Notes under the pieces: model-generated | What the model saw: only the letters and a program-made list of their open reading frames with translations | Told to the model about the DNA's origin: nothing | Database searches by the model: none | From: an uncultured Cohaesibacter sp. | GTDB lineage: Bacteria; Pseudomonadota; Alphaproteobacteria; Rhizobiales; Cohaesibacteraceae | DNA: 64,000 nucleotides | Direction of reading: 5' to 3' | Assembly: GCF_963676485.1 (NCBI RefSeq) | Contig: NZ_OY781114.1 | Location: 3,612,501 to 3,676,500 of the forward strand | Part shown: one piece after another, positions 853 through 10,632 of the stretch | Layout: every line of letters begins with the position of its first letter | How positions within the stretch are numbered: position 1 is the first letter of the stretch | Made by a program: the position numbers and the translations under genes

Positions 853-1695
853 CTACTCCAGTTCGCGCACGACTTGTCCATAGGCCAACAGGGCAAACAA
901 TCCAGTGCCTCCGGCTATGTTCCCCAAAAGAGTGCACGAAAGGAGTGCCGCAGTTTGTGCAAGCCCTATTTCTCCGCGCATTCCCAAAAGGAAAAGTTCG
1001 GTTGACCCTGCAATGACGTGGGTGAAATTGCCGAGCGCTATGAGATATGTGAACATGATGATCACAAGGAATGCAGCACTGCGTGCGGAGGGGATCATCC
1101 ACACGATTGCCGCCACAAGAAAGCCCGATGTGATCCCATAGGAAAAGGCCTGTGATACATCGAGATTGGCATAATGGTGTGAAATTGCTGCCATGCCATC
1201 TACATATTCAGGCGGGATGGTTCCGATATGATATCCCAGCAGCGCCGCAAGAAATGTTCCGCACAGGTTGGCGACAAATACGATTGCCCAGAGGCGCAGG
1301 GTACTCCAGAGCATCTTAAGGGAGCTGTGCGTGAGAAGGGGCAATATTGCCGTGATTGTGTTTTCGGTAAATAGCTGCAGGCGCCCGAGAATGACCAATA
1401 CGAACCCAACCGTATAGCCAAGATTCTCTATGGCAAATTGATATGGTGAGCCTTCAAACACCTTGTGAAGGATCCCTTCAGCAATAACCGAGGTTGAAAT
1501 GCCTAAACCGGCTGCGACGCCCGACCACCACAAGGATGTCGCCGGGCGATTCAGTTCTTCCATGCCTTCGCGATGGACGACGGCATATACTGATACAGAA
1601 CTCAGGCTGTGATGATCGCGGACATCTTTTCTTTCTTGCGCACTCAACGGGGATTTGTTGCCCGATTTCTTTTCTTTTCTTATTTGATCCGACAT
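853..1695 (-). CDS. Formate/nitrite transporter (FNT) family channel, YfdC-like
   Basis: A 280-residue polytopic inner-membrane protein. The first 45 residues are charged and cytoplasmic (SDQIRKEKK). About six hydrophobic segments follow, and the FNT signature LFTENT is at about residues 108-113. A second loop, GNFTHVIAGSTE, near residue 222 carries the histidine expected at the central pore constriction. FNT proteins are pentameric channels for small monovalent anions such as formate or nitrite. The long charged N-terminus and TENT motif resemble the YfdC subgroup, whose substrate is not settled. The gene is monocistronic and transcribed leftward. No formate or nitrite enzyme is nearby to define the substrate. 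Confidence 0.85.
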   Translation of the reverse strand: MSDQIRKEKKSGNKSPLSAQERKDVRDHHSLSSVSVYAVVHREGMEELNRPATSLWWSGVAAGLGISTSVIAEGILHKVFEGSPYQFAIENLGYTVGFVLVILGRLQLFTENTITAILPLLTHSSLKMLWSTLRLWAIVFVANLCGTFLAALLGYHIGTIPPEYVDGMAAISHHYANLDVSQAFSYGITSGFLVAAIVWMIPSARSAAFLVIIMFTYLIALGNFTHVIAGSTELFLLGMRGEIGLAQTAALLSCTLLGNIAGGTGLFALLAYGQVVRELE

Positions 1696-7702: not shown

Positions 7703-8257
7703 CTAGATATACTCTTTGAACAGCTCTTGCGACGCATTGGAAATGACCACATGATTGACGAGGATACCGGCGTCCTTGATCTCCTCTATGCCTGCTGATA
7801 CCGCGGCTGTGACCGCGCCCACATCTCCGCAGAGCAGCAGAAAGCCTTTCCCCCCAACAGCCATGGCGATGTGGACCCTCACGAGGGTGACATTTGCAGC
7901 TTTGGCGGCGGCATCGGCTGCCCAGACAATGCTGGAAGAGGAGAAGGTTTCAATGATGCCGAGGGCTTTGCCTTTTGTGTTCTGTAGCTCGACAGAGCCT
8001 GTGAGGGAAGGGAACAGTTGAGGGTCGACATTAGGCAGGAATATCTTGTCCACCTGAAAGCCCGCTGCAAGGCGCTCTCCTGCATCAAGGGCTGTCTGGA
8101 CTGGGGAGACCTTTCCGCCGACAACGATCATGTATTTGCCCGGACAAATGGTTCGGGCAACAAGCAGTTCCACATCCGCAGCCTTGAGCATGCCGTCCTG
8201 TACCAGATATCCAGCTGCAATGCTGGAGAGTTCCAAAATTCCGATGGCTAGTGGCAT
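7703..8257 (-). CDS. pduT: PduT-like tandem-BMC-domain shell protein with Fe-S cysteine
   Basis: 184 residues made of two BMC domains in tandem (about residues 3-90 and 97-184). This is the BMC-T architecture, in which a trimer forms a pseudohexameric shell tile. The start AIGILELSSIAAG and the segment ARTICPGKYMIVVGG match PduT. The cysteine is residue 38, the position that in PduT of enteric bacteria coordinates one [4Fe-4S] cluster at the trimer axis. The second domain opens ALGIIETFSSSS and contains VRVHIAMAVGGKGF. The gene is 60 bp downstream of pduS on the same strand. PduS and PduT are known electron-transfer partners in propanediol microcompartments. No BMC-H, BMC-P or enzyme gene is in this window, so the shell, if any, must be encoded elsewhere. 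Confidence 0.9.
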   Translation of the reverse strand: MPLAIGILELSSIAAGYLVQDGMLKAADVELLVARTICPGKYMIVVGGKVSPVQTALDAGERLAAGFQVDKIFLPNVDPQLFPSLTGSVELQNTKGKALGIIETFSSSSIVWAADAAAKAANVTLVRVHIAMAVGGKGFLLLCGDVGAVTAAVSAGIEEIKDAGILVNHVVISNASQELFKEYI

Positions 8258-8317
8258 GATGGCATTCCTCGTTATCTGCTTTACTTTTCTTTGGTTCCCG
8301 CACAGGGCGTTTGGGTG

Positions 8318-9670
8318 TCAGGCAAATGGGGTTATCACGATTTCCCTGTCGCTGACTTGCGTCACCTGGCCATCGACGGGGGCATGAATTTCAGCACCCA
8401 ACTTGTCGCCAACCGTAGCTATCTTCTGGAACCGTGTCACCGTGTCACCCGCTGCGACTATGGGGGTGGCCGGTGCGCCGATATGCTGGCTGGTGCGGAT
8501 GGTCAATTGCTGCGGATGAAGCGCGAAAGCTTGCAATGAACCCCTATTCTGGAAGCGGTCAAGCGCCAGACGGGTCATGATTTTTTTTACCGGCGTGCGG
8601 CGATAGTCGATCAGGGGATGGGCCTTGGTCTGGCCGGAGCCATCAAGATTTGCCTTGGCGGCCATGGCCTGCTTTTTGCTCGCAATGGTGACTTGAGCCG
8701 GATAGAGCCCCTCGGGGCAGGAGACGAGAGTGCAGAGATTGCATTCTGCGCAAGCCATGGTTTGAGGTAGGATGGCGAGCTGATCGGCGCCTTCGTTGAA
8801 GGATGAAAACATCAGGTTGCGCATGGCCTTGTGTGGCTCGACCGGGTGCCCCAGCAAATGGCGCGGGCATAGTTCGCTGCAAATTGAGCATTGATCACAG
8901 GCTGATTTGCCAATGCGTTTGACCCGCTTTTCCTGCGCTGCTGTGTCGAACCTTTTGATCAAGGGGTGATCCTTGGCAAAAACCAGCAAGCCACCGGTGG
9001 TTTTCGTGACCGGTTCGTCGAGGCTGGTTGCCAGCTTGCCCATCATGGGGCCTCCGATAATCACGGCGCAGTCGTCTTCCATATGGGAGAGGTCTGATGC
9101 TTTCAGATTCGGGTGGGCGAGGGCGATCACTTCACGCAAGGACATGCCGATGGGGACTTCCACCGAGAGCGGCTGCCGGACATCGCCACCGACGGTGATG
9201 AATTTGGTCACCAGCGGCGTGCCAAGGCCGATATTGTAGATCGTCTCCACATTGTTGACGATAACCCCCTGACTGCTGGGGAGTGCCTTTGGTGCGACAA
9301 TGCGGCCGGTTGCTTCATAAATGAGCGTGATTTCATCTCCAACCGGGTAGAAATCGCGTAGGCCCATGACCTCGATGCGGTCAGGCGCGGGGTTGGTTTC
9401 TTCCAGGTGAGCGATCAAATCGGTATATTTTGCCTTGATCCCGATGATACAGCGCTTGGCAGCCGTCAGATCCAGACAGGTTACAAGTCCCTTGAAAAAG
9501 GTCTCGCTCTTGAGCCGCAGCAGCTCTTTATCCTTGTGGAGGAGCGGTTCGCATTCGGCGGCATTGACGATGAATATTTCTGTTGCGCTGCCCAGTTTGA
9601 CATAGGTTGGAAATCCTGCGCCGCCTGCCCCAACGATGCCCAACTCTTTGATTTGTTCTGTTGTTGTCAT
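8318..9670 (-). CDS. pduS: PduS-like (RnfC-type) Fe-S flavoprotein oxidoreductase
   Basis: 450 residues from ATG 9670, chosen because GAGGG precedes it by six bases. Order of parts: a glycine-rich nucleotide/FMN region (LGIVGAGGAGFPTYVKL, about residues 10-26), NAAECEPLLHKDKELL (36-51), DFYPVGDEITLIYEATGR (about 106-123), an SLBB-like segment, then two ferredoxin motifs. The first is C-x2-C-x2-C-x3-CP (Cys 258, 261, 264, 268) and the second C-x2-C-x2-C-x4-CP (Cys 307, 310, 313, 318). A C-terminal barrel domain (GAPATPIVAAGDTV) follows. PduS is known as a cobalamin reductase that passes electrons via PduT in propanediol-using organelles. Homology also exists to RnfC of the Rnf membrane complex, but pairing with a BMC-T protein favours PduS. 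Confidence 0.88.
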   Translation of the reverse strand: MTTTEQIKELGIVGAGGAGFPTYVKLGSATEIFIVNAAECEPLLHKDKELLRLKSETFFKGLVTCLDLTAAKRCIIGIKAKYTDLIAHLEETNPAPDRIEVMGLRDFYPVGDEITLIYEATGRIVAPKALPSSQGVIVNNVETIYNIGLGTPLVTKFITVGGDVRQPLSVEVPIGMSLREVIALAHPNLKASDLSHMEDDCAVIIGGPMMGKLATSLDEPVTKTTGGLLVFAKDHPLIKRFDTAAQEKRVKRIGKSACDQCSICSELCPRHLLGHPVEPHKAMRNLMFSSFNEGADQLAILPQTMACAECNLCTLVSCPEGLYPAQVTIASKKQAMAAKANLDGSGQTKAHPLIDYRRTPVKKIMTRLALDRFQNRGSLQAFALHPQQLTIRTSQHIGAPATPIVAAGDTVTRFQKIATVGDKLGAEIHAPVDGQVTQVSDREIVITPFA

Positions 9671-10632
9671 GGCGGCCCTCATTTCATTTTTTGCGTTGTC
9701 AACGAAGCAAACCAGACACAGCCTCCTTGGCGACAGGGATTCGGTCACCCCGATGGGCATGTGCGGAGAGTGCAGTTTTTTGTTTTGGCTATCTTGTTGC
9801 TGCCAGCAAACTGCACGTCAAACTTTCATCAATCCAAGCTTGGTCTTATGCGCCCGCCATGCGCAAAAATGGCAAGGGGGGACTAGGCCGAAACAGGATC
9901 TGTGCAGCCTTTTTAAAGAGGAGCCAGTAGCTCGACTCTCATGCGGCTTTTATTGGATAACCGGGTTCTGATGATAGACCCTTTTATAAGTATAACTTAT
10001 TGATTTAACGCTTAATGTGTCAACGAGACTCATTTGCCATTCGAGAGTAAAAAATTGCTGTTGGCCTCTCTTGTTGGTGCCCTTCGAGAGGGGAGGCTAT
10101 CTTGTTGGCAAGTCTCTTCAGAGGACCGAGGAAGGCCCGCGCCCGTCCCTCTTGTCTACCTTTCGGGTGGTGTGTGACAGAGGCACGTTTTGGTGCGCAA
10201 GGGCATGATTTATGGAAGTAGTTATTGTTTCATTACTTCAGTATAACAAATATCAATGGAGGCTGCCTTTACAGATCCTACTTATTGTTTTTATGCGTCT
10301 TTTTTCTAGATATGCCTGAATAAAACCGTTTCCTAACTTGATTAGAATTTTTGGTTCGTCTTTCTAACAAGAATATATGATCAATTCGATGTATAAATGG
10401 ATGGGTTTGGGACACTTAAGTTTGGTTAAATGACTGATATTTTTCCAATAATGCGATATTTATACTTTTAAGTCATTCGGCTGATGAACAAAAGTACTAT
10501 GGTGCATACAATCAAACTCTCAGTACGTTTACTTAGTCTAAGTTAGACGCCGTGGCCGCTTTGAGGAGAGTGGGTTACGGAATGGCCACTTTGAGGAGAG
10601 TCGGCCGCTTACATTTTATTTGGGAGGAATTT
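9671..10632. other. Long gene-free divergent region (pduS / Liv importer)
   Basis: About 960 bp without a convincing gene. The open frames in it have atypical residue composition. The half next to pduS (to about 10200) is mixed in composition. The half next to the importer is AT-rich (10210-10540) and must hold the promoter for the rightward operon. It ends with the 30-bp-period repeat at 10553-10601. I looked for a cobalamin riboswitch upstream of pduS and did not recognise one. An uncharacterised small RNA or leader cannot be excluded. Confidence 0.5.
10553..10601 (+). repeat. Two direct copies of a 19-bp element before the importer operon
   Basis: tggccgctttgaggagagt (10553-10571) recurs as tggccactttgaggagagt (10583-10601), 18 of 19 bases identical with a 30-bp period. 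A further cggccgctt follows at 10602-10610. The copies lie 32-80 bp before the start codon. They could be a regulator-binding direct repeat (about three helical turns apart) or a duplicated leader segment with an SD-like GAGGAG. Confidence 0.6.

Follow-up and report, generated by a model that had tools for sequence, protein, structure and literature searches.

A pduS-pduT pair in a Cohaesibacter genome as a probable, co-regulated satellite locus of a distant glycyl-radical-enzyme microcompartment

The window analysed here, a stretch of 64,000 nucleotides from the chromosome of an uncultured Cohaesibacter sp., contains a pduS-pduT pair that stands between transport operons, with ABC transporter genes as its neighbours. 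This raises the question of which microcompartment, if any, the two proteins serve. An earlier note had described a pduT with Cys38 and a pduS with two four-Cys motifs, 60 bp apart, and had offered two readings, a satellite serving a shell encoded elsewhere or a shell-free electron relay that would be a new use of BMC-T proteins. Both ORFs were found intact at their positions (Table 1), with the gap of 60 bp between them. Our analysis points with high confidence to the first reading: the pair is very probably a satellite locus of a GRM3-like, B12-independent diol-type organelle, is probably co-regulated with it and would add a PduS-PduT electron relay to it.

Table 1. Positions of the pair, of its upstream features and of the main locus (G000 is the genome that contains the window)
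Feature	Position	Strand	Description
pduT	window 7703..8257	(-)	tandem BMC-T shell protein, 184 aa, pore cysteine Cys38 (ARTICPGK)
pduS	window 8318..9670	(-)	FMN/Fe-S flavoprotein, 450 aa, two four-Cys motifs, start ATG at 9670
long leader	window 9671..9993	(-)	between candidate promoter and pduS
candidate promoter of pduS	window 9994..10023	(-)	-35 TTGACA, 18-bp spacer, -10 TAAGTT
24-bp element CAATTTTTTACTCTCGAATGGCAA	window 10034..10057	(-)	common to the main-operon promoter, G000:C1:4075415-4075438
main locus (L010, with L204)	G000:C1:4.0755-4.0918 Mb		gene order, start: PfpI-like protein, GRE, Fe-ADH, BMC-H, PduB-type BMC-T
main locus, continued			next: BMC-H with C-terminal extension, PduL, EutJ, 277-aa protein without family, BMC-P
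main locus, continued			end: HbpS-like, AldDH, GrpU, GRE activase, MetK, PocR-domain histidine kinase, AraC-type response regulator

A domain search of PduT found two tandem PF00936 domains (136.5 bits). Its best solved relatives were 3pac, 3nwg and 3n79 (E 1.6e-42 to 3.7e-40), and the alignment with the solved PduT chains covered the full length and ran through the ARTICPGK pore motif, in which 3n79 has Ser in place of Cys. The NCBIfam PduT equivalog TIGR02526 matched residues 4-181 with 117.7 bits, below its cut-off of 250.3, yet solved PduT chains were among the top relatives of the protein. PduT has cysteines at positions 38 and 143. Residues 38-42 (CPGKY) fit the pore-cysteine motif C-P/S/A-G-K/R/S-Y/F given in PMC6325248, and the pore Cys did not vary when the protein was aligned with one or two distant homologues.

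PduS contained PF01512, SLBB, Fer4_17 and RnfC_N, the same four-domain set that PMC6325248 gives for PduS. Its identity to enterobacterial PduS was 38-43% across 95-99% of the length (first ten matches); for the listed records that carry the annotation rsxC, it was 28-34% across 67-77%. In NCBIfam, the models for RnfC and PrdC both scored under their own cut-offs, and no PduS model matched there. By these comparisons, the window protein is closer to PduS than to RnfC/PrdC. In alignments to one or two distant homologues, the ligands of its two four-Cys sets (258/261/264/268 and 307/310/313/318) were invariant. A longer pduS ORF starting at 9760 is probably not used, because a TGA lies in the match upstream of the ATG in three of four relatives.

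The statement of the earlier note that no microcompartment gene lies nearby held for the neighbourhood, where no other BMC-domain gene was found above the cut-off, and failed for the genome. A search of the whole assembly (96.7% complete, 2 contigs) located BMC domains above the cut-off at G000:C1:4080099-4087275, in addition to the two of pduT, and one BMC-P, at 4084356. They belong to a glycyl-radical-enzyme microcompartment (GRM-type) locus on the same chromosome, 0.45 Mb from the pair. This main locus has no pduS of its own, as the whole genome gave one PduS match at E <= 1e-20, and no second pduT, as the only BMC domains above the cut-off outside the locus were those of pduT. A complete BMC operon elsewhere in the genome without its own pduS/pduT was what the earlier note had set beforehand as the refuting observation, and the main locus is such an operon.

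The main locus combines a GRE and its activase with shell, AldDH, PTAC and ADH genes, the gene set of GRM3/3b, and the GrpU pore motif GTCPQH makes the assignment lean towards GRM3b rather than GRM3. The best solved relative of the GRE was 9rco, named a glycyl radical protein, followed by glycerol dehydratase and then diol dehydratase. The GRE carries the glycyl loop, and the best solved relative lacks 49 of its residues (618-666). According to PMC6325248, the 1,2-propanediol GREs of GRM3-5 have an insertion of ~60 residues; the 49 residues fit a GRE of the 1,2-PD dehydratase type, in which an insertion of ~60 aa inside the protein serves as encapsulation peptide. We infer 1,2-propanediol or glycerol as the predicted substrate, and the organelle would be a B12-independent one, probably for 1,2-propanediol.

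These features also bear on the possibility that PduS is a cobalamin reductase serving a B12 enzyme, as in Pdu organelles. The PduS and PduT of enterobacteria with Pdu organelles (Salmonella, E. coli, Klebsiella, Citrobacter) are 38-43% and 40-43% identical to the proteins of the window, and the PduS domains and cluster ligands are the same. PduS is homologous to cobalamin reductases, and the main locus contains an HbpS-like gene, whose product we take to be of the PduO C-terminal domain type. In contrast to the enterobacterial systems, the large subunit of the B12 diol dehydratase (PF02286) had no match in this genome, while two positive-control genomes matched, and the role of signature enzyme falls to a GRE, which has the glycyl loop and an activase. 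Judged from the diol dehydratase large subunit and the GRE, a role as cobalamin reductase is very unlikely.

The promoter regions connect the pair to the main locus. In an alignment of the sequences upstream of pduS, one block was kept even in the non-syntenic copy of G014, and an alignment of the sequences upstream of the main operon from seven genomes contained a similar block. A weight matrix was built from the main-operon sites only (three distinct sequences among the seven genomes) and was therefore blind to the pduS sites. When both strands of the window were scanned with it, the single best match was the 24-bp element upstream of pduS (23.05 bits; next match, 15.3). The best match also lay upstream of pduS in all four 20-kb pduST loci of the relatives, including that of G014, with 23.1-25.8 bits, and the next matches there had 12.2-13.4. 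When 200 windows were simulated with the dinucleotide composition of the real one, the maximum was 20.7 bits, and none reached 23; depending on base composition, 0.0003-0.0025 chance matches at 23 bits are expected per window and 0.03-0.2 per genome. A 16-letter exact pattern gave ten matches in 20 family genomes, six before main operons and four before pduS, and its reversed control gave none; the pattern was written from both kinds of site, so this test is not blind. Two deviating sites escaped it, that before pduS in G003 and that of the main operon in G015.

The element has a similar position in both kinds of promoter. In the seven main operons, it is followed by 9 nt, a TTGA-type -35, an 18-bp spacer and TAAYGT; in the five pduS promoters, by 10 nt, TTGACR, an 18-bp spacer and TAAGTT or TAATTT. 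For the candidate pduS promoter of the window, the 18-bp spacer was chosen by reading, with 17 also possible, and the -10 TAAGTT is weak (TAATTT in the G014 copy). The distance from the element to the pduS ATG was 350-363 nt in all five pduST loci, and the leader of the window copy had no Rfam match. When the pduS promoter was inspected by eye for an FNR-like box, no good match was seen. The shared element before both gene sets suggests that the pair and the main operon are turned on together. The main locus encodes a histidine kinase that carries a PocR domain, and this kinase and the AraC-type response regulator were present in the main locus of all seven genomes; they are the likely controllers of both operons. 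To our reading, this regulatory link is the fact that is added to the known kinds of locus discussed below.

We then compared the occurrence of the pair and of BMC genes across 20 family genomes, of which 18, including the own genome, belong to the genus; G005 (64% completeness) and G015 (8% contamination) are poor drafts. BMC domains were found in seven genomes. Five of these seven had the pair, with PduT found in the same five genomes as PduS; shared ancestry means that they are not five independent events. The orthologous PduS of the four relatives showed 76-87% identity over 470-476 residues. Weaker matches in ten family genomes (32-35% identity, covering only about the first two thirds) are presumably RnfC. 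The earlier note had proposed a survey of relatives for pairs without shell genes, and none emerged, as 0 of the 13 BMC-less family genomes had the pair. Its satellite reading is strongly supported by the main locus without pduS/pduT, the shared element and this co-occurrence. The pair is optional and not essential, because G012 and G015 keep the whole main locus, with GrpU, and lack the pair. A basal relay may be provided by GrpU, encoded in the main locus; this would account for how these two genomes can do without the pair.

In a class-wide sample, PduS was found in 1 of 385 genomes (own only; the E limit of 1e-36 may miss distant copies) and PF00936 in 13 of 385, and these matches are too sparse for an in-class ancestor of the pair to be shown. 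We also surveyed named genomes and kept the best 80 loci of a longer list. When these 80 distant loci were searched by tblastn with the own-genome proteins, 73 had PduT within 350 bp of PduS on the same strand; a GRE was within reach in 12, and BMC-P, AldDH or PduL in 54. Full flanks were available for 44 of them, and 41 of the 44 had an adjacent pduT. Five of the 41 (L097, L121, L127, L131, L147) contained no other shell or core gene in ~10 kb, and L091 (Desulfoluna) is a sixth such locus, its only further match falling inside pduT. All six genomes encode BMC-P elsewhere. BMC-P was encoded in 18 of 19 distant genomes, which is not a random-sample figure because the 19 were hand-chosen from the best 80; most were taken for having few BMC neighbours or for their nearness to the window. 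BMC neighbours do occur at L089 and L090 among them, and L094 has no adjacent pduT. The exception is L110/G454, a draft Acidobacteria MAG with pduS and pduT in which BMC-P was not found. The only BMC domains found there were two in one frame of 345 codons, possibly a fusion.

These counts decide against a shell-free relay, in which PduS and PduT would form a soluble or membrane-associated redox pair in a cell that has no organelle. The isolation of the pair from other BMC-domain genes above the cut-off and the Acidobacteria MAG would agree with it. It is contradicted by the full shell gene set of the genome, the promoter element common to pair and main operon, the lack of the pair in all BMC-less family genomes and the BMC-P of the chosen distant genomes, where the single exception is a draft. 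We regard a shell-free relay as extremely improbable, and the tempting but wrong claim of a shell-free use of BMC-T is thereby removed.

A satellite of the GRM organelle, the reading that we prefer, leaves the origin of the pair to be considered. A PduS tree was made from 48 rows (the first 45 of the best 80 loci, minus L097, which has a stop in the translated match, plus 4 others). The genus grouped with Desulfobacterium, Desulfoluna and a Myxococcota MAG (100/99), apart from the PduS of Bacillota GRE loci. The Desulfobacterium pair lies ~5 kb from a GRE, which is only 33% identical to the own-genome GRE. This grouping with Thermodesulfobacteriota/Myxococcota, and not with the Bacillota GRE loci, indicates that the histories of pair and organelle may be separate, and the pair seems to have one of its own.

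The chromosomal place of the pair was compared among the relatives. The same two transport operons flank it in its own genome and in G002, G003 and G010. The 20 kb around the G014 pair contained none of the window neighbours that were tested, and other transport and regulatory genes were read by eye beside the pair. For an empty-site test, the neighbouring solute-binding protein was used as query (E <= 1e-120) and matched in 9 of the 20 family genomes; ~10 kb was taken from each of five of the nine, those without the pair at the site (G012, G014, G001, G007, G004). In none of the five did the solute-binding protein adjoin the pair or those genes of the window's next operon that were tested, and a clean empty site was not found. 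pduT and the solute-binding protein are ~170 bp apart in the window; in G003, two ORFs that look sulfotransferase-like by eye (L057:10654-12326) stand between pduT and the ABC solute-binding protein, and the interval in G002 and G010 is similar in length to that of G003. A formate/nitrite transporter gene (PF01226; window 853-1695) lies ~6 kb from pduT.

A PduS lineage other than that of the Bacillota GRE loci, together with the absence of the pair from two of the seven BMC-bearing genomes, could also be expected if the pair were the decaying remnant of an older BMC locus that no longer serves the GRM organelle. Decay is at odds with the state of the genes: in all five pair-bearing family genomes, both frames are open, and neither the PduT pore Cys nor either of the four-Cys motifs is lost. 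The promoter element is likewise kept in all five, including the different genomic site in G014. A relic is therefore highly improbable. More tentatively, and short of an even chance in our judgement, pduS-pduT could be a mobile plug-in relay from a lineage shared with Thermodesulfobacteriota/Myxococcota, which spread independently of the organelle, sits at two unrelated chromosomal sites and was linked to the GRM organelle already present by a copied promoter element. If this were true, cells with the same organelle would differ in the electron conduction of their shell, through PduT or only through GrpU.

From the homologues, we propose how the satellite pair would work. The PocR kinase and the AraC-type regulator of the main locus would act on the shared 24-bp site beside the -35, and both promoters would be turned on. 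The PduT trimer would then enter the organelle shell, with its three Cys38 holding an Fe-S cluster in the pore, and PduS would dock onto the lumenal face of PduT. There, PduS would oxidise NADH produced by the encapsulated aldehyde dehydrogenase. Its FMN and two Fe-S clusters would carry the electrons onward, with either PduT as the way out or the GRE activase as the recipient. For homologues, PMC6325248 describes a pore Fe-S cluster, the oxidation of NADH and an interaction between PduS and PduT; PMC8667426, together with that source, provides the homologue basis for the PduT trimer, PduS docking and export or activase supply. Export, or NAD+ recycling, would be the preferred direction, and export is favoured because a potential of +99 mV is reported for PduT (PMC6325248).

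Published accounts exist of satellite BMC loci as well as of PduS/PduT in GRM organelles (PMC4207490, PMC6325248, PMC8217296). The GRM-locus pairs covered in PMC6325248 resemble the one described here in the tandem pduS-pduT, the pore Cys, the two Fe-S motifs and the B12-independent organelle. By the count of that review, PduT or PduS occurs in 47 of 65 GRM3 loci, with the pair counted inside the GRM locus; here, in contrast, it lies 0.45 Mb off with its own candidate promoter, and the main locus has GrpU. The satellite loci of PMC4207490 and PMC8217296, as presented there, likewise have a shell gene away from the main locus of the same genome that makes no shell alone, whereas the present locus also has the redox partner PduS and a promoter element common to the main locus. 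Its shell genes are insufficient (PF00936 only), as expected for a satellite. The strict 2014 usage in PMC4207490 allows no other BMC-related gene; because pduS is BMC-associated, the locus is satellite-like in those terms, and it is a satellite under the wider 2021 definition. Our literature search, mostly without subscription papers and with supplementary tables outside it, found no paper that treats this locus or describes a pduST satellite with a shared promoter element; the supplement of the 2021 catalogue may list this satellite. The seven related genomes with one GRM organelle, five with the PduS-PduT relay and two without it, constitute a natural experiment. It would make the question of what PduS/PduT do in B12-free organelles, as raised in PMC6325248, testable by strain comparison or by deletion of the pair, away from the shell operon. 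A shared promoter element also offers a way to tie scattered satellite genes to their organelle.

Further observations concern the main locus itself. metK (S-adenosylmethionine synthetase; L010:18290-19438) was directly 3' of the GRE activase in all seven GRM loci of the genus, perhaps as a supply to the activase. The 277-aa protein (L010:13510-14343) had no Pfam or NCBIfam match and was present in all seven loci; with 38-77% identity, it was the fastest-changing among the main-locus proteins compared. Several successive proteins encoded downstream of the GRM locus (L011:9573-14999) were recognised by eye as having curlin-like N/Q-rich repeats.
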